Shown here piece by piece: positions 26 through 10,650 of a stretch of 58,907 bases of DNA. The notes beneath the pieces are model-generated. The model was given only the letters and a program-made list of their open reading frames with translations. It ran no database searches and was not told the DNA's origin. The stretch is taken from contig WGLT01000014.1 in NCBI GenBank assembly GCA_016125425.1, positions 1-58,907 of the forward strand. The letters are read 5' to 3'. A program made the position numbers and the translations under genes. Position 1 is the stretch's first letter. Each line of letters opens with the position of its first letter. This stretch comes from Alphaproteobacteria bacterium (GTDB taxonomy: Bacteria; Pseudomonadota; Alphaproteobacteria; Caulobacterales; Parvularculaceae).

Positions 26-661
26 GCTTCAATGAGGCCGGGGCGATCAGGCCCCGGAATAATTGCTCCGTGAGCCGGCGTTCGACCGCAGCCACCGCAG
101 CTTCAATGAGGCCGGGGCGATCAGGCCCCGGAATAAAATCTCCAAGGCCGGCGGAAAGGTGGCGACCTTCCAAGCTTCAATGAGGCCGGGGCGATCAGGC
201 CCCGGAATAACGAAGCTCTTCGGCGTGAAGCGCACCGACGAGCGCTCGCTTCAATGAGGCCGGGGCGATCAGGCCCCGGAATAACCATGTCGCGCCGAAA
301 CCGTACCCTCTGGCGGACGGAGGCTTCAATGAGGCCGGGGCGATCAGGCCCCGGAATAAGTCTCCAAGGCCCGCGGAAAGGTAGCAACCTTCGAGGCTTC
401 AATGAGGCCGGGGCGATCAGGCCCCGGAATAAAACCTGGACGCCAGACTCACCGCGATAGAGGAGACCCTGCTTCAATGAGGCCGGGGCGATCAGGCCCC
501 GGAATAAAGCCTTTTTCTGGTCGACAAATTCGGGGTGGTCTTCCTCGCTTCAATGAGGCCGGGGCGATCAGGCCCCGGAATAACTTTGCGACGCCCATCA
601 TCTGGCGCGCAGTCGAAATGTGCCGCTTCAATGAGGCCGGGGCGATCAGGCCCCGGAATAA
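26..661 (-). CRISPR. CRISPR array, nine 37-bp repeats, subtype I-G
   Basis: Nine identical 37-bp repeats begin at 26, 100, 174, 248, 323, 396, 471, 547 and 625. The eight complete spacers are 36-41 bp, and a partial spacer fills 1-25, so the array continues past the left edge. Read on the minus strand the repeat starts TTATTCC, holds a perfect 7-bp hairpin (CCGGGGC / GCCCCGG, 6-nt loop) and ends ATTGAAGC, the usual form of a crRNA 5' handle. Transcription is therefore inferred on the minus strand, the same direction as cas2, with the leader on the right. All visible repeats are identical, as expected near the leader. The spacers at 137-173 and 360-395 are near-duplicates. Confidence 0.98.
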
Positions 662-3095: not shown

Positions 3096-3245
3096 ATGAA
3101 TTTCGATTCCGCCTTTAAGATGCTGACCGGCTTTGCGCCTCTGCGCTGGCAGGCGCGGCTTTATGAGGAGTGTTTCAGCAAAGGCGAAATTCCTCTCGCG
3201 GTCAGTCCGCAGGCTGGAACAACAAGAATGATCGGCGGGCGTTGA
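3096..3245 (+). pseudogene. Remnant 5' end of a second, different cas3
   Basis: A 49-codon ORF starts at an ATG with GAGG five bases upstream. Its N-terminus (FDSAFKMLTGFAPLRWQ, then RLYEECFSKGEIP) reads like the start of an I-G-type Cas3, which normally continues into a P-T-G-L-G-K-T Walker A motif. Here the similarity dissolves after GEIPLAV (about position 3205) into SPQAGTTRMIGGR. The TGA at 3243-3245 overlaps the TTG start of the intact cas3 as TTGA. The likely history is replacement of an older cas3 by a divergent one, leaving the old 5' end and its ribosome binding site as a translated leader. Family assignment is from recall of the N-terminal pattern only. Confidence 0.5.
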
Positions 3246-5758
3246 CGGACCAACAGCAATTCCGCGAGCTTTTCGCAACGGCGTGCGGGCAAGAGCGCGC
3301 GCCCTACCCTTTTCAACAGCGCCTCGCCCTTGACCCATGGCCGGATGTCATGATCGCGCCGACGGGGCTTGGAAAAACCGCCGCGGTGACGCTGGCGTGG
3401 GCGTTCAAGCGCTTGAAGGAAGACGAGGCGACGCCGCGGCGGCTCGTCTGGTGCCTGCCGATGCGCACGCTTGTTGAACAGACGGCGCAAGAAGCCGAAA
3501 GCTGGATGAAGCGCCTTGCCGATGCGTGGCGCAGCAAAGGCCGGAAAGCGCCGCCCGCGGTCCATAAGCTGCTCGGCGGTGATGTCGACAAGGATTGGGT
3601 TCTCGATCCGACGCGCGAAGCGATCCTCATCGGCACGCAGGATATGTTGATTTCCCGCGCCTTGATGCGCGGCTATGGCATGAGCCGGTTCCGCTGGCCG
3701 ATCGATTTTGCGCTTCTTCATACGGACAGCCTTTGGGTGTTCGACGAAGTGCAGTTGATGGGCGCGGGGCTCGCGACATCGGCGCAGTTGGAGGCGTTCC
3801 GACGCCGGGACGGCCGGTTTTTCGGCCTCCCGGCGAGAAGCCTTTGGGTTTCAGCGACGCTCGACCCGGCCTGGCTTGCGACAGTCGATTTTCGCAAGCA
3901 GGTGGTCGAGCCCCTTGTTTATCGCTGGAACGACGGCGCCGCGGCGGAGCCCGAAAAGCTGACGGCCATTCTCGATGCGAAGAAATCGGTTCGCAAAATC
4001 GAGAGCGTCGCGAGCGGCAATGACGAAGGCAAGAAGCTCGCGGCCTATGCGAAGACGGTCGCAAGCGAGATTCTTGAGCGCCATAACAAGGCCAATCCGA
4101 CGCTCGTCATCGTCAACCGCATCGCCCGCGCGCAGGCGATATTTGACGCGCTCTTGAAAGCGGGGTGGGAGAGCGAGGTTATCCTGCTTCACAGCCGATT
4201 CCGGCAGAAGGAACGGGCGGCGATCGTGAACAAAGTTCGGGAGATGCAGCCCTCAGACGGCCTTATCGTGATTTCGACGCAGGCCGTCGAGGCTGGCGTC
4301 GACATCTCCGCGCGCCTTCTCATCACCGAACTCGCCCCCTGGTCGTCGCTCGTCCAGCGCTTCGGCCGATGCAACCGCCAGGGAGAATTCGGAACGGGCG
4401 CGAACGGCGCCAGCGCAGAAATATGCTGGATCGACGCCGTTGATGATGAGAAAGCCGCGCGGCCCTACGCGCTCGTTGAATTGCAGGCGGCGCGCGAGGA
4501 GCTTTGCAAGCTGGCCGAGGCGAGCCCGCGCGGCCTTGCGCCGGCGGCAAGCGGCCCGCAGGCCCGTCACGTCATTCGACGCAAGGATTTCGAGGAGCTG
4601 TTCGACACCGACGCCGATCTCATGGGGTTCGATGTCGATATCGCGCCTTATGTGCGCGATGCGGAGGATACGGATGTACGCCTGTTCTGGCGCGAGCTTC
4701 CGAAAAAACAGAAGGAACCCGACGATGCGCTCGTCGAAACATCCAAGAAGACGAACAAGCCAGTCCGCGAGGAGCTCTGTCCGGCGTCGATCAGCGCAGT
4801 GAATGCTTGGCTGAAGAAAGATCGCAACGGCAACCGTGCCTTCCGATTCGATATTCTGGCGACGGGCGAGAAGTCCAGGCGCTGGCTGCCGGTTTCCGGC
4901 CGCAACTCTCGCCGCATCAAGCCGGGCGACGTGCTGATGATCGCCGCAGACCTCGGCGGATATGACGAGAGGCGCGGGTTTTATCCGCAGTCAACAGACA
5001 CGGTTCCTGTCGTCGATGTAGGGGCCGCGCAGGTCAAGGAGCCGGACGAAGGGCAGGACGACGATCCTTGGTCAAGGAAAGACAAGGCCGTCGGACTCTC
5101 CGATCATCTCGTTCATGTTCGCGACGCGGCGAGAGCGCTATGCGAGGCGGTCGGCCTTGCCGAGCCTTGCCGCTCCGCGGTCATTCGCGCCGCGGCTTGG
5201 CACGATGTCGGCAAGGCGCATGAACAATTTCAACTGCGCGCCATTTGGGCCGATGGCGATCCTGAACGGCCGCTCGCCAAGGCGACAAAATGGCGCCGGA
5301 CTTGGACGGCCGACGACGACGCCCCACCGCCGCGCCCCTATTTCCGACATGAACTTGCGTCAGCTCTCGCCTTCCTAGCCCAGCATGATGGCGAGCCAAA
5401 CGCCGATCTCGTCGCCTATCTGATCGCCGCCCATCACGGCAAGGTGCGCATGGGAATTCGCTCGCTGCCGGGCGAGAAAGCGCCCGATGATAAGGACGCG
5501 CTGTTTGTACGCGGGGTGTGGGCTGGCGACGTGCTGGAAAAAGTGCGCGCCGGCGAGGAAATATCCGCGGCGACGCGGCTTTCGCTCGACGTGATGCGCC
5601 TCGGCGAAACGCCGGAAGGCCGGCCGAGCTGGGGCGCGCGCACGCTCGCTCTTCTCGCCGAATATGGGCCGTTCAAGCTGGCGTTCCTCGAAACCTTGGT
5701 GCGACTCGCCGACTGGAAAGCGTCGGAAGACGAACAGAAGGGCGAGGCGTCATCATGA
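3242..5758 (+). CDS. cas3: Cas3 helicase-nuclease (subtype I-G, C-terminal HD domain)
   Basis: The protein has 838 residues from the TTG at 3242. That start is preferred because it gives the usual short N-terminus (TDQQQFRELFATACG) before Walker A, and because it overlaps the stop of the upstream remnant ORF. A GTG at 3170 would add 24 atypical residues. The helicase core shows APTGLGKT (~residues 39-46), the DExx box FDEVQ (~166), SATLD (~200) and motif VI (LVQRFGRCNRQ). The C-terminal HD nuclease shows WHDVGKAH (~653) and AAHHGK (~730). A C-terminal HD is the I-G arrangement, the reverse of most Cas3 proteins. It unwinds and degrades target DNA after Cascade recruitment. The stop overlaps the csx17 ATG. 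Confidence 0.94.
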   Translation: MTDQQQFRELFATACGQERAPYPFQQRLALDPWPDVMIAPTGLGKTAAVTLAWAFKRLKEDEATPRRLVWCLPMRTLVEQTAQEAESWMKRLADAWRSKGRKAPPAVHKLLGGDVDKDWVLDPTREAILIGTQDMLISRALMRGYGMSRFRWPIDFALLHTDSLWVFDEVQLMGAGLATSAQLEAFRRRDGRFFGLPARSLWVSATLDPAWLATVDFRKQVVEPLVYRWNDGAAAEPEKLTAILDAKKSVRKIESVASGNDEGKKLAAYAKTVASEILERHNKANPTLVIVNRIARAQAIFDALLKAGWESEVILLHSRFRQKERAAIVNKVREMQPSDGLIVISTQAVEAGVDISARLLITELAPWSSLVQRFGRCNRQGEFGTGANGASAEICWIDAVDDEKAARPYALVELQAAREELCKLAEASPRGLAPAASGPQARHVIRRKDFEELFDTDADLMGFDVDIAPYVRDAEDTDVRLFWRELPKKQKEPDDALVETSKKTNKPVREELCPASISAVNAWLKKDRNGNRAFRFDILATGEKSRRWLPVSGRNSRRIKPGDVLMIAADLGGYDERRGFYPQSTDTVPVVDVGAAQVKEPDEGQDDDPWSRKDKAVGLSDHLVHVRDAARALCEAVGLAEPCRSAVIRAAAWHDVGKAHEQFQLRAIWADGDPERPLAKATKWRRTWTADDDAPPPRPYFRHELASALAFLAQHDGEPNADLVAYLIAAHHGKVRMGIRSLPGEKAPDDKDALFVRGVWAGDVLEKVRAGEEISAATRLSLDVMRLGETPEGRPSWGARTLALLAEYGPFKLAFLETLVRLADWKASEDEQKGEASS

Positions 5759-7983
5759 CGGGCGAGGTTCACCTCAACGATCTTTGTCTTGGCGGATGCA
5801 AGCCGACGCCGCTTGCGAGCTATTTGAAGGCGCTCGGCATTTTGCACCTTGTCGCCGAACAGGCGGACCCGAATGCGAAAGGCTGGTGGCGGGCCGAACG
5901 GTTCTGGATACGGACGAAACTGACGCTCGAGCAATTGATCGCGTTCTTTCTCGACGAGTATGCGCCGAGCCCGATTATCGCGCCGTGGAACGGCGGGAGC
6001 GGATTTTACAAAAAAGACAATCAAACCGGGATCAAGGCGATCGAAGAAGCGCAGGCGCAGCGGTTTCAGGCCTTGAAGTCTGCAATTGAATTTGGCCGTC
6101 AATTCGTGCGGGAGACGGGGAACAAGGAGCGCCCGAAAGACGAAGAGAAGCAAGCGTTCATCGCTGAGATCCGCGCAACGGCGCCGGACAAGCTGACGGA
6201 ATGGATCGACGCCGCGGTCGCCGTCACGACAGAAAAGCTCGCCTTTCCGCCGCTGCTTGGAACTGGCGGCAATGACGGGCGGCTTGATTTCACCAACAAT
6301 TTCTTTCAACGCCTCTCCGAGTTGATCGATTGCGCTTCGGGACGGTCGACTGAGAGTTCTTCGCTGCGGTCATCTCTGTTTGGCGATCCCGCAACGAGCG
6401 CGCAGGATTCGCCGATTGGCCAGTTCGCTCCGGCAGACGCTGGCGGCGCAAACAGCACGAGCGGTTTTGATCGCGGCGGCGCGCTGAACCCCTGGGATTT
6501 CATATTCATGATGGAGGGCGCTCTGCTGATTGCGGGGGGCGTCGTTCGTCGATTTGAGTCGCAAGACCGCAGCGCCGCCTCCTTTCCTTTCACTGTGCGC
6601 GCAACCGCCGCCGGGGCTGGCGCCGCGTCACAAGCCGAGGAGTCGGAGTCACGCGGCGAGTTCTGGGCGCCGTTATGGAGCGCGCCATCCGGATTTGCAG
6701 AAATCCAGCAAATGTTTCGAGAAGGGCGCATTGCGCAAGGCGCGCGGTCATTGCGCGACGGCATGGACGCCGCGCTCGCGATCGCCTCGGTCGGCGCGGA
6801 TAAACGTATAAATGCGTTCCAGAGATATGGTTTCGAGAAGCGTCAAGGAAAAGCGTTTCTGGCGACGCCGCTGGGCCGACGGACGGTCGTCCGAACACCG
6901 AGGGCTGAATTGACGACGGACCTTGATTCCGACAGATGGTTCGAAAAAGTTCGGCGCGCCGGCCGTGATTCCAACGCGCCGGCGCGCCTCGCAAGCGCTG
7001 TCCGCACGCTCGAAGACTCCCTCTTCGCCCTCGCTGGCGGCGGCGATGCGCGGCAAGCGGCGCAAGACATCATTGTCGCCGTCGGCCGCCTTTCCCGCAT
7101 CTGTGCAACGAACAACAAACTCCGCGAAGAATTGCGACCGCCGCCTCTCTTGCGGCGCGACTGGATCGGGGCTTGCGGCGACGAGGCGGAAGTGCGCCTC
7201 GCGTCGGCCCTCGCCGGTCTACGCCTCCATCACGGCGCCGACAACGAAGAGGAAAAAGTGGCGCAATCAGCGGATGACTATCCTTTCCGCGCCCATATCG
7301 CTCCGATCGCTGACGCCAAACAAAACCGGAGGCCGGCCTGGACCGAAAGCGGATCATCGCCTGACATGGTTTGGACCGAAGGCCGTCTTGTCGACTCGAT
7401 GGTCGCGATCGCGCTTCGCCGCACTGTTGAGGCCGACCGCCAGCGCGCGGGCGGGGCGATGTTTAGCGGCTCTTTTGGACGGCTCGCGCGCCTCGGCGAT
7501 GTCGCAGCTTTTCTGGCGGGCGAAGTCGACGAGCGACGCATCGCCGACCTCGCTCTCGGTTTCGCCTGGATCGGACCCAATCGCCGGCCCAATCACTCAA
7601 CCGCAGACCAAGATCGCCCGCCGCCGTTCGCCTATGCGGCGTTGAAACCCTTCTTTGCGCCACCGGCCAATAAGCCGAAGAGCGAGGCGCTCAAGCAGCG
7701 ATCGACGCGCGCGCGGGTGGAATTTCCATCGTCAGTTGTGCATCTACTCGCTACCGGCCGCCTCAAAGACGCGCTCGACACCGCCATAAGACGCGCTCGC
7801 GCCGACAATCTTCCAACGCCGTTCAAGGGGGCCCATGTCGCAGGCGTTGACCCGCGCCGTCTCCTCGCGGCGCTGATGTTCCCGATCAGCGAGCCCGCGC
7901 TGATCGCCTGCCAGGATCGGGCGTTTCCATCAGATGACGCCGACAACAATCACGACGAAAGGACCTATGACGATGCCGCTTGA
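5755..7983 (+). CDS. csx17: Csx17 / Cas8 large subunit of the I-G effector complex
   Basis: This 742-residue protein starts at the ATG overlapping the cas3 stop as ATGA. It opens with the Csx17 signature GCKPTPLASYLKALGILHLV. Csx17 (Cas8u2/Cas8g) is the large subunit of the subtype I-G Cascade and presumably recognises the PAM. The rest is alpha-rich with no catalytic motif that I recognise. Length fits the family. A longer in-frame reading from 5518 lies inside cas3 and was not used. Its 3' end overlaps the next gene by 11 bp, so it is translationally coupled within the effector operon. Confidence 0.92.
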   Translation: MTGEVHLNDLCLGGCKPTPLASYLKALGILHLVAEQADPNAKGWWRAERFWIRTKLTLEQLIAFFLDEYAPSPIIAPWNGGSGFYKKDNQTGIKAIEEAQAQRFQALKSAIEFGRQFVRETGNKERPKDEEKQAFIAEIRATAPDKLTEWIDAAVAVTTEKLAFPPLLGTGGNDGRLDFTNNFFQRLSELIDCASGRSTESSSLRSSLFGDPATSAQDSPIGQFAPADAGGANSTSGFDRGGALNPWDFIFMMEGALLIAGGVVRRFESQDRSAASFPFTVRATAAGAGAASQAEESESRGEFWAPLWSAPSGFAEIQQMFREGRIAQGARSLRDGMDAALAIASVGADKRINAFQRYGFEKRQGKAFLATPLGRRTVVRTPRAELTTDLDSDRWFEKVRRAGRDSNAPARLASAVRTLEDSLFALAGGGDARQAAQDIIVAVGRLSRICATNNKLREELRPPPLLRRDWIGACGDEAEVRLASALAGLRLHHGADNEEEKVAQSADDYPFRAHIAPIADAKQNRRPAWTESGSSPDMVWTEGRLVDSMVAIALRRTVEADRQRAGGAMFSGSFGRLARLGDVAAFLAGEVDERRIADLALGFAWIGPNRRPNHSTADQDRPPPFAYAALKPFFAPPANKPKSEALKQRSTRARVEFPSSVVHLLATGRLKDALDTAIRRARADNLPTPFKGAHVAGVDPRRLLAALMFPISEPALIACQDRAFPSDDADNNHDERTYDDAA

Positions 7984-9025
7984 TCTCGCGCCGCTCAAGG
8001 ATAGTTCTCGATTGCTCATAGAAGCGCCGCTGAGGCCGCTTCAAGGAACCCGGTTTCAACCAACCGGCTTTCCCAATCTCGGCCCGGCGCGATACAGCGC
8101 GCCTGGCGGCGAGGAAATGCTCCTCGTCGAATCCGCGCAAAGCATGGCGAATCGGCTTGAGGCGACGTGCTGGGATAACGTCAATCAAAAATATGTGACT
8201 CGTCTTGGAGGTGTACCTTTCGTCGCGGTTGAGATGGACGGAAAGGTTCGAACGAGTTCTGTTGAAGTCGCTCACAGGTTGAATAGCGTTTATATTGAAG
8301 AATCTGACTGGTTCGAGAAAACCTTTGCGCGCGAACTAGGATTTGTAAAAAAGGGCAAAAAATTTGAACGCCAAGATCAAAGTGCGCCGGTCGATTTCCG
8401 CGATGCGGCAAAAGTCATTTTTAAGTATGACCCCGGTTCGCTGGTTCACGGCGTATTTCTTGAAAGCATTGCCGGCGTCATCCGATTTCCGCGCATTCTC
8501 TCCTCCTTCATAGAGGCAGAAGAGATAAATAGCGCGACAAGCGGCGGCGTCAAAAATGATTCCCTTCAGCCTGAAAAACGAGAAGAAAAAACTGCGATAG
8601 AGGGGTATGGCAACGTCCCTTTCGTCCGCGAGGAATTCACCGCGAAAAAAATCGTCGCCTATTTCAATCTCGATCTCGCGCAGATACGCGGCTATGGCCT
8701 TGGGCCGGCGGCGAGCGACTTTCTGACCGCCTTTGCGCTCTATAAGATAAGGGTGCTGCTCGACGGCGATATGCGCCTGCGCACGGCCTGTGATTTGAAG
8801 CTCGACGGCGAGCCCGAGATCACGCGTCCCGCCGGCTTTAAGCTTCCAAGCGCGGCTGATCTTGAGAGCGCCTTGCCGGCGCTCGTCTCCGCTGTCGCAA
8901 AGGAAGGGCTGTTCGCCGATCCGCCGGTGACCGTCGTTGTCTATAAGAAGGCGAAATCAAAGAATTCCGGCAAAGCGGAGGCGTCGGGCGCGTCGGATGA
9001 CGATAACGATAATGGCGACGAATGA
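7973..9025 (+). CDS. csb1: Cas7 (Csb1 / GSU0053 family) backbone subunit
   Basis: This protein of about 350 residues has the Csb1-type segment VESAQSMANRLEATCWD near residue 50. Csb1 is the Cas7 that polymerises along the crRNA in subtype I-G. Three in-frame ATGs are possible (7934, 7967, 7973). The last is chosen because GAAAGGA (7957-7963) sits nine bases upstream, a normal spacing. The first lies deep inside csx17. The C-terminus is an acidic, low-complexity tail (Asp/Asn/Glu rich). The stop overlaps the start of csb2 by 4 bp. Confidence 0.91.
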   Translation: MPLDLAPLKDSSRLLIEAPLRPLQGTRFQPTGFPNLGPARYSAPGGEEMLLVESAQSMANRLEATCWDNVNQKYVTRLGGVPFVAVEMDGKVRTSSVEVAHRLNSVYIEESDWFEKTFARELGFVKKGKKFERQDQSAPVDFRDAAKVIFKYDPGSLVHGVFLESIAGVIRFPRILSSFIEAEEINSATSGGVKNDSLQPEKREEKTAIEGYGNVPFVREEFTAKKIVAYFNLDLAQIRGYGLGPAASDFLTAFALYKIRVLLDGDMRLRTACDLKLDGEPEITRPAGFKLPSAADLESALPALVSAVAKEGLFADPPVTVVVYKKAKSKNSGKAEASGASDDDNDNGDE

Positions 9026-10650
9026 TCTGTCTTCGACTTAAATTCCCCGCCGGCCGCTATAACGCAACGCCCTGGGGTCGGCATGTCAATGAGGGCGATG
9101 TCGCCTGGCCGCCGGAGCCCTATCGGGTCCTGCGCGCGCTGATCGCGGTCTGGCATCGCAAGGCCGACAAGTCGAAATACACCTATGAGCGCCTTGCGGA
9201 ACTGATAGACGCCCTCTCGGAAGCCGATCCGCGCTTTCGTCTTCCCGAAAGCGTGCATGCTCATTCGCGCCATTATATGCCTCAGGGAAAACTGAGCGGC
9301 GGGGGCGAGCAAAAGAGGCTCGTCATCGACGCTTTTTTGCGCATCGCGCCGGATGATCCGCTTATCATCGGATGGGATGTCGCGCTTGACGAAAATACTC
9401 GCGAAACGCTGGAGCATCTCATCCCTCTTCTCAGCTATTTCGGGCGCGCAGAATCGATTGTCGCGGCTGAAGCGCTACGCGATTGGCCGTCCAAGTACGA
9501 ACCGAATTCTGTCCCGCGCCCGATCGAAGCTGAGCGCCTCATTGCAGATGGGCCGCAGCGCGCGCAGCCGGTCGATCTTCTCGCGCCGATAAAAGCATCT
9601 AAATGGCCGGCGCGGCGCCATGAGCTGCTCAGCCTGAATAGGGACAAGCCGAAGTCAAAGTCGCCTCAAGTTTTTGAAAAGACCATTCCCGAACGCCTCG
9701 TCGATGCGCTTTCTGTCGATACCGGCGTAATCCAGGCCGCGAAATGGAGCGGTCCGCCGGCCGGCAGGCTGGTGCTGTATGATCGTCGGCCATTATCGCC
9801 AACGCCCTCAACGTCAGCGCGTCGCCGCGCGGGCGCGAAAAATTCGATGACGCCGACGGTTGCTCGCTTCATCCTCGCGGGGAAGCCGCGCCCTTCAATT
9901 TTCGACACCGTCATGATCGCCGAAACGATGCGCCGCGCGGCGATGTCGAAATGGGGCTGGTCGACGCAGGCTAACGGACGCAAGCAACCCAACGCGCCGT
10001 CGCTAATTTCGGGGAGAGACGATAACGATGAGCCCTTGCGCAATGCGAAACACTCGCACGCCTTCTGGCTGCCTGAAGATGCTGACTGCGACGGTTTCAT
10101 CGATCATGTGACGGTTTTTGCGAGAGAGGGGTTCGACGCAGATTGTCAGCGCAATCTTTCTCGCCTCGCCCGTCTCTGGGTCGAACATGGCGCGCCCGAT
10201 GAAGACGGCGAGCGCGGCCGCAAGGAATGGCGGTTGGCGCTCGAGGGTTTCGGCGAGCCCGCCGATTTCGCAGCCGATTCGGCACTATTGAAGCACACCG
10301 CGAAATGGCGCTCCGCAACGCCCTATCTTCGTCCGAGATTCGGACCGCGCACATCGCGTGAAGTCGAATTGCAAATCTGTCGCGAACTTGCGGCGCGCGG
10401 CCTGCCGGCACCGCAGAGCGTAATCGTCGGGAGCCTCGATCGCCCAGCAATCATCGTTTCTGAAGACAGGCCATGTGGTGAGTTGGCCGTAAAGTTTCGG
10501 CGAACACGGTCACGCCGCGACCTTGCCCAGCCCGACACTCTCGGTTGTTCAGTCGAAATCACGTTTTCAGAACGGATCGACGGCCCATTGGCGCTGGGTT
10601 TCGCCTCTCATTTCGGCCTCGGCCTCTTCAAAGCGGTCGACCCGGCTTGA
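9022..10650 (+). CDS. csb2: Csb2, fused Cas5-Cas6 (GSU0054 family)
   Basis: This 542-residue protein is the last gene of the effector operon, beginning in an ATGA overlap with csb1. The N-terminal MICLRLKFPAGRYNATPWG followed by WPPEPYRVLRAL is the GSU0054/Csb2 pattern, a Cas5-like RAMP domain. The C-terminal half carries the Cas6-like domain, including the family block HSHAFWLPEDADCDGFIDH (~residue 342), whose histidines are candidates for crRNA cleavage. The fusion explains why no separate cas6 or cas5 is present. It would cut the repeat 3' of its hairpin, leaving an ATTGAAGC handle. Confidence 0.92.
   Translation: MICLRLKFPAGRYNATPWGRHVNEGDVAWPPEPYRVLRALIAVWHRKADKSKYTYERLAELIDALSEADPRFRLPESVHAHSRHYMPQGKLSGGGEQKRLVIDAFLRIAPDDPLIIGWDVALDENTRETLEHLIPLLSYFGRAESIVAAEALRDWPSKYEPNSVPRPIEAERLIADGPQRAQPVDLLAPIKASKWPARRHELLSLNRDKPKSKSPQVFEKTIPERLVDALSVDTGVIQAAKWSGPPAGRLVLYDRRPLSPTPSTSARRRAGAKNSMTPTVARFILAGKPRPSIFDTVMIAETMRRAAMSKWGWSTQANGRKQPNAPSLISGRDDNDEPLRNAKHSHAFWLPEDADCDGFIDHVTVFAREGFDADCQRNLSRLARLWVEHGAPDEDGERGRKEWRLALEGFGEPADFAADSALLKHTAKWRSATPYLRPRFGPRTSREVELQICRELAARGLPAPQSVIVGSLDRPAIIVSEDRPCGELAVKFRRTRSRRDLAQPDTLGCSVEITFSERIDGPLALGFASHFGLGLFKAVDPA

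Follow-up and report, generated by a model that had tools for sequence, protein, structure and literature searches.

The CRISPR array at the beginning of the DNA stretch analysed here (the window, 58,907 nucleotides, corresponding to contig C26 of G000, a draft genome that totals 2.87 Mb on 31 contigs) contains two spacers, located at 137-173 and 360-395 on the minus strand, that hold divergent versions of the same target site; a chance match is excluded. We consider it highly probable that they record two independent type I-G acquisitions, made at different times from homologous sites of two related, diverged invaders. The sources would most likely have been phages, with conjugative elements possible. 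Mutually matching, independently captured spacers have already been published, and the pair is a clean example of this known event. In the sister species G004, such pairs are unusually frequent, as judged from small, post hoc numbers.

The array and the adjoining type I-G locus

Repeat comparison placed the array at 26-661 on the minus strand, with nine identical 37-nt repeats and eight complete spacers, whose order is taken as assembled. The array spacers range from 35 to 41 nt in length, and the contig starts inside a further spacer, present as a 25-nt piece at 1-25. A second array piece with the same repeat is located on contig C27; it has six repeats, the outermost of which carries two mismatches. 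Based on the ATTGAAGC end of the repeat, the order of the cas operon and the degenerate terminal repeat at the far end on C27, the crRNA would be transcribed from the minus strand and the leader would lie at 662-880, beside cas2. This putative leader (minus strand), proposed from its position between the array and cas2 and from a MAFFT alignment, can be partly aligned with the leader region of G004, as judged by eye and with no score.

Pfam and PADLOC analyses identified a complete type I-G CRISPR-Cas locus, including a Cas4-Cas1 fusion, adjoining the array. On the minus strand are located cas2 (881-1174; Pfam PF09827, 2.1e-18; PADLOC Cas2g, 6.8e-31) and the cas4-cas1 fusion gene for the 572-aa PAM-selecting integrase (1179-2897; Pfam Cas_Cas1, 1.1e-88, and Cas_Cas4, 1.3e-19; PADLOC Cas1g, 6.7e-183), in which the PADLOC match spans residues 21-572 and the Pfam Cas4 and Cas1 domains lie within a single ORF. 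The plus strand carries cas3, the type I-G helicase-nuclease gene (3170-5758; PADLOC Cas3g, 9.5e-263), whose product has a C-terminal HD domain (Pfam Cas3_HD, residues 657-855); cas8g (csx17), coding for the large subunit (5518-7983; PADLOC Cas8g, 1.1e-201, residues 91-793), with 5518 being a mechanical ORF start and the true start probably further in; cas7g (csb1, GSU0053; 7934-9025; Pfam PF09617, 1.1e-38; PADLOC Cas7g, 2.7e-41); and the cas5-cas6 fusion (csb2), assigned to crRNA processing (9022-10650; PADLOC Cas56g, 3.7e-134). The gene set and the Cas4-Cas1 fusion are shared with the type I-G systems described in PMC9638904 and PMC10274657. These accounts report an 8-nt handle for type I-G, and the repeat of the window, considered from its sequence alone, ends in a plausible handle of this kind. 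The PAM reported for type I-G is TTN (PMC9638904).

The diverged spacer pair and its counterparts in related arrays

The two spacers are each bounded on both sides by identical 37-nt repeats. Without gaps and at offset 0 from the crRNA-handle end, the 37-nt spacer at 137-173 and the 36-nt spacer at 360-395 are identical at 30 of 36 positions. The first-pass annotation had described a gapless 35-nt core with 30 identities, flush at the handle-side base and with differences at crRNA positions 1, 3, 10, 13 and 24; all of this was reproduced (30/35 for the core), and full overlap adds a sixth difference at the far-end position 36. The binomial chance of at least 30 identities in 36 at one offset is 1.8e-12, or approximately 1e-8 once all pairs, offsets and strands are counted. 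Among 14 G000 spacers compared in both orientations (13 complete and the 25-nt piece at 1-25), the runner-up pair reached an identity of 0.57. The pair members are three units apart in the array, and their neighbouring spacers are unrelated (identities of 0.46 and 0.45). The substitution pattern of the pair gave no significant signal of coding constraint (P 0.45). The spacer at 360-395 had been placed nearer the leader, in agreement with the repeat end, the operon order and the degenerate terminal repeat on C27; by position, it is the younger, leader-proximal member, and 137-173 is the older, leader-distal one.

For comparison, arrays were collected from relatives carrying a Cas4-Cas1 match, which was found in 13 genomes besides G000: 4 of 299 at E 1e-80, and 7 of 385 and 3 of 398 at E 1e-140, with one genome shared among the searches. 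G049, whose repeat is of a different kind, was left out, as were G364, G767 and G681, which had no array on the fetched stretch. The resulting set, nine relatives and G000, comprised 298 spacers and 12,781 within-genome pairs, 16 of which exceeded the threshold. Five of these 16 are identical pairs (a G242 block of three, the adjacent G004 spacers 25/26 and one G179 pair); four are diverged same-strand pairs, namely the pair of the window and three in G004, of the same genus, with offsets of 0, 0, 0 and 1; four are opposite-strand overlaps, all in G004 and from two target sites; and three are weak G179 pairs, with scores of 13-15.4 against a maximum of 12.2 in five shuffles, one of them same-strand (7/80, offset 5) and two opposite-strand. 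Among these 16 pairs, the copies that resemble duplicates carry no differences; the clearly diverged pairs start at, or within 1 nt of, the same PAM-end base. Under a uniform distribution of offsets over 33 values, three or more of the four diverged pairs at offset 0 have a P of approximately 1e-4. The arrays of the eight sampled genomes other than G000 and G004 contained no diverged flush pair; outside G000 the pattern comes from one sister array. Among 31,472 cross-genome pairs, there was one weak match.

The G004 array, with 55 repeats, is located at 9790-13804 of L056 (G004:C140) and holds the three diverged same-strand pairs; two of its sites were captured from both strands with overlap (spacer 20 with 42/48, and spacer 45 with 5/44). 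In G242:C1 (L063), spacers 14-16 recur identically as 31-33, an apparent block duplication. In G179:C17 (L062/L065), spacers 54 and 79, of 38 and 39 nt, are identical over 38 nt; they may represent one protospacer captured twice and trimmed differently at the distal end.

In the G004 pair 2/10, one frame (RHMGLCIVMTD) makes every one of the six differences synonymous (P 0.0014, uncorrected, with four pairs tested). The other two diverged G004 pairs showed no coding signal (P 0.77 and 0.81), and the Fisher combination over the four pairs, 0.047, is driven by this one pair. Because pair 2/10 is wholly synonymous, the sister species very probably acquired both of its spacers from a single gene under constraint. 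By analogy, the pair of the window may also derive from a constrained gene.

Search for the source elements

A convincing protospacer was found for neither spacer among phages, plasmids, viral contigs, genome contigs and 62 family genomes. In blastn searches against phages, the two spacers matched five and seven records, all at E of at least 1 and none covering 80% of the spacer. Against plasmids, 360-395 matched two records (E of at least 1), and 137-173 matched 24, also at E of at least 1, two of them covering at least 80% (8 of the 24 listed). The best listed plasmid match, to traC of an Alcaligenes conjugative plasmid (83.8% over 97% of 137-173, gapped, E 5), was rejected as a source: only its AGLGD half is in frame with the spacer, the other half requires out-of-frame gaps, and 360-395 aligns worse than 137-173. 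Relatives of TraC occur in 47 plasmid records, and none was found at E 0.001 in the 62 family genomes, an empty result that, with no positive control, shows little. The traC match is probably due to chance.

In the viral contigs, a motif scan with the frame KA-x-GKVATF gave three matches, at sites with an identity of at most 0.67 to either spacer, and the frame LEG-xx-LSAGLGD gave none. The frame KVATFP-x-ALE gave six matches, five sharing one sequence and the sixth a close variant of it; they lie antisense to ORFs of 632-964 residues, reach at most 25/36 identity to a spacer and were discarded. The single match from a motif scan of genome contigs, on a 5.76-Mb scaffold of Mucilaginibacter and with numerous wobble-site differences from either spacer, was also taken as chance. 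In the 62 family genomes, including G000, the degenerate pattern of the pair, with up to three mismatches allowed, matched only its own array. No viral contig matched the motifs of three spacer families of G004 or of one further spacer of G000, and two of these families had no site in the 62 family genomes beyond the G004 array.

Contig C27 bears on the nature of the targets. After its last CRISPR repeat it continues into a phage terminase-like frame (G000:C27:37114-37599; L002 1901-2386), and this passage from the array into the frame suggests that the array targets include tailed phages. The best PHROG of the frame is 31467, of no known function (4.6e-29), and the second is PHROG 2, terminase large subunit (2.3e-9). 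Its relatives are found in 397 phage records, all below 60% identity, and in one viral contig; the best six listed of the 397 (Microcystis, Achromobacter and Rhizobium), at 48-50% identity, are all annotated as terminase. A search of the 61 other family genomes did not find the frame. Its first bases are probably a spacer that matches a phage of the sample exactly, the join being either chimeric or real. If this spacer is 36 nt long, the junction reads TTC, in agreement with the TTN reported for type I-G (PMC9638904), while other lengths within 35-41 nt give other triplets. Three phage records (for CF418P1, 50,000 of 58,030 bases) and a stretch of the viral contig were also compared with peptides translated in six frames from the spacers of G000 and G004; the best score was 0.76, below the shuffled maximum of 0.80 from 192 peptides. 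One lead, a G004 spacer against this viral contig, was inspected and dropped.

Origin of the pair and recurrence at one site

Independent capture from two diverged relatives would follow from the way in which type I-G spacers are processed. The Cas4 domain of the Cas4-Cas1 fusion would cut at the PAM and thus fix the PAM-proximal end of the spacer, so that captures at one conserved PAM would start at the same base; the distal end would be trimmed loosely, and the length may vary, as in the 37- and 36-nt members of the pair. Each capture would carry the natural divergence of its own invader. We infer that both source sites had the same PAM, and likewise the order of the two events. For type I-G Cas4/1, a Cas4 cut just at the PAM and trimming of the other end without sequence specificity have been described (PMC10274657). 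In the same account, overhangs of 6 and 8 nt accompany the predominant one of 7 nt and are suggested to be sequencing errors or PAM slipping, and the 1-nt shift of the G004 pair 5/44 suggests variation of the kind so ascribed.

The first-pass annotation had favoured two independent acquisitions at one PAM in related phages over a duplication, and this part has indirect support. That one repeat-spacer unit was duplicated and then mutated within the array appears extremely unlikely. Identical duplicate-like spacers do occur in type I-G arrays, such as the adjacent G004 spacers 25/26 and the G242 block of three; these copies are, however, identical, whereas 6 of 36 bases differ here while the nine repeats do not. 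The copies are also three units apart and their flanking spacers are unrelated. The identical repeats and unrelated flanking spacers favour independent capture, which the flush end, the complete type I-G locus and the same pattern in the sister species also support. Sampling of two paralogous or repeated sites of one element, each once, is likewise very unlikely; here, by analogy only, the wholly synonymous G004 pair resembles orthologous divergence under constraint. The merging of two strains' arrays by assembly or recombination, each with its own version of the spacer, has a low probability in our view. The draft is divided into 31 contigs, the array pieces lie on two of them, and on one contig a single spacer connects the array with phage-like DNA; given this fragmentation and this join, short identical stretches could have led to chimeric joins. 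Nevertheless, C26 runs unbroken through nine identical 37-nt repeats with regular spacing.

The other part of the earlier proposal, re-immunisation against an escape variant with a changed seed, found no support. According to it, the older crRNA (137-173) would have stopped a phage, and a seed-changed descendant would have been captured as 360-395, possibly via primed adaptation, which imperfect matches can trigger in type I systems. The differences at crRNA positions 1 and 3 are at the PAM-proximal end, and the array order is right, yet this order is equally consistent with any later encounter. The six differences are scattered over positions 1-36, inside and outside the seed, which is more than an escape mutant needs. 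Such a spread is what lineages separated for a long time would show, and it points to lineage divergence. Primed spacers usually come from other PAMs nearby rather than the same one, and no phage sequence in the collections searched links the two spacers. We therefore regard escape as improbable.

Independent capture of matching spacers has precedents with different characteristics. In Sulfolobus islandicus, 41 mutually matching, independently acquired spacer pairs were reported (PMC2946923); the published account describes acquisition by coexisting strains, with 37 of the 41 pairs offset, whereas both members of the pair described here belong to a single array, share their PAM-end start and differ by 17%. 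Candidatus Methanomassiliicoccus intestinalis, with a type I-B system and 23 spacers similar to smacoviruses, contains in one genome the near-identical spacers sp59/sp63, which differ by one mismatch and one extra nucleotide, and the opposite-strand overlapping pair sp34/sp49 (PMC6336856). Compared with the pairs in that account, divergence is higher here, and the source virus was not found in the collections searched. In a Synechococcus mat virome, variants of one protospacer were described to differ by silent or conservative changes (PMC2612747); those variants reside in the virome, while in the present array each of two spacers keeps one variant.

The frequency of same-site pairs was compared with random choice of PAMs in a model in which 14 G000 spacers (13 complete and the C27-junction one) and 54 G004 spacers all derive from one 42-50 kb lineage, with the PAM density set to that of one of three phages retrieved as records, none of them a known target. 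Under random choice, TTN sites predict 0.34-0.97 same-site pairs and TTC sites 0.91-1.62; the four pairs observed exceed this generous expectation (P 0.0004-0.08), and the three exactly flush pairs alone give P 0.005-0.22, in numbers that are small and post hoc and with targets that could be smaller than assumed. The excess of same-site recurrence in the genus is a lead, not a result. It is rather unlikely, in our estimate, that type I-G in this genus revisits the same PAM site of successive invader relatives beyond random PAM sampling; the cause of recurrence may be acquisition hot spots, or an older, imperfect crRNA that focuses capture on the site it binds. Should a larger set of arrays show the same excess, hot spots or site-focused priming in type I-G systems would be indicated. 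Such pairs would document that one invader lineage attacked repeatedly, and they are consistent with precise processing of the PAM end by Cas4-Cas1 under natural conditions.
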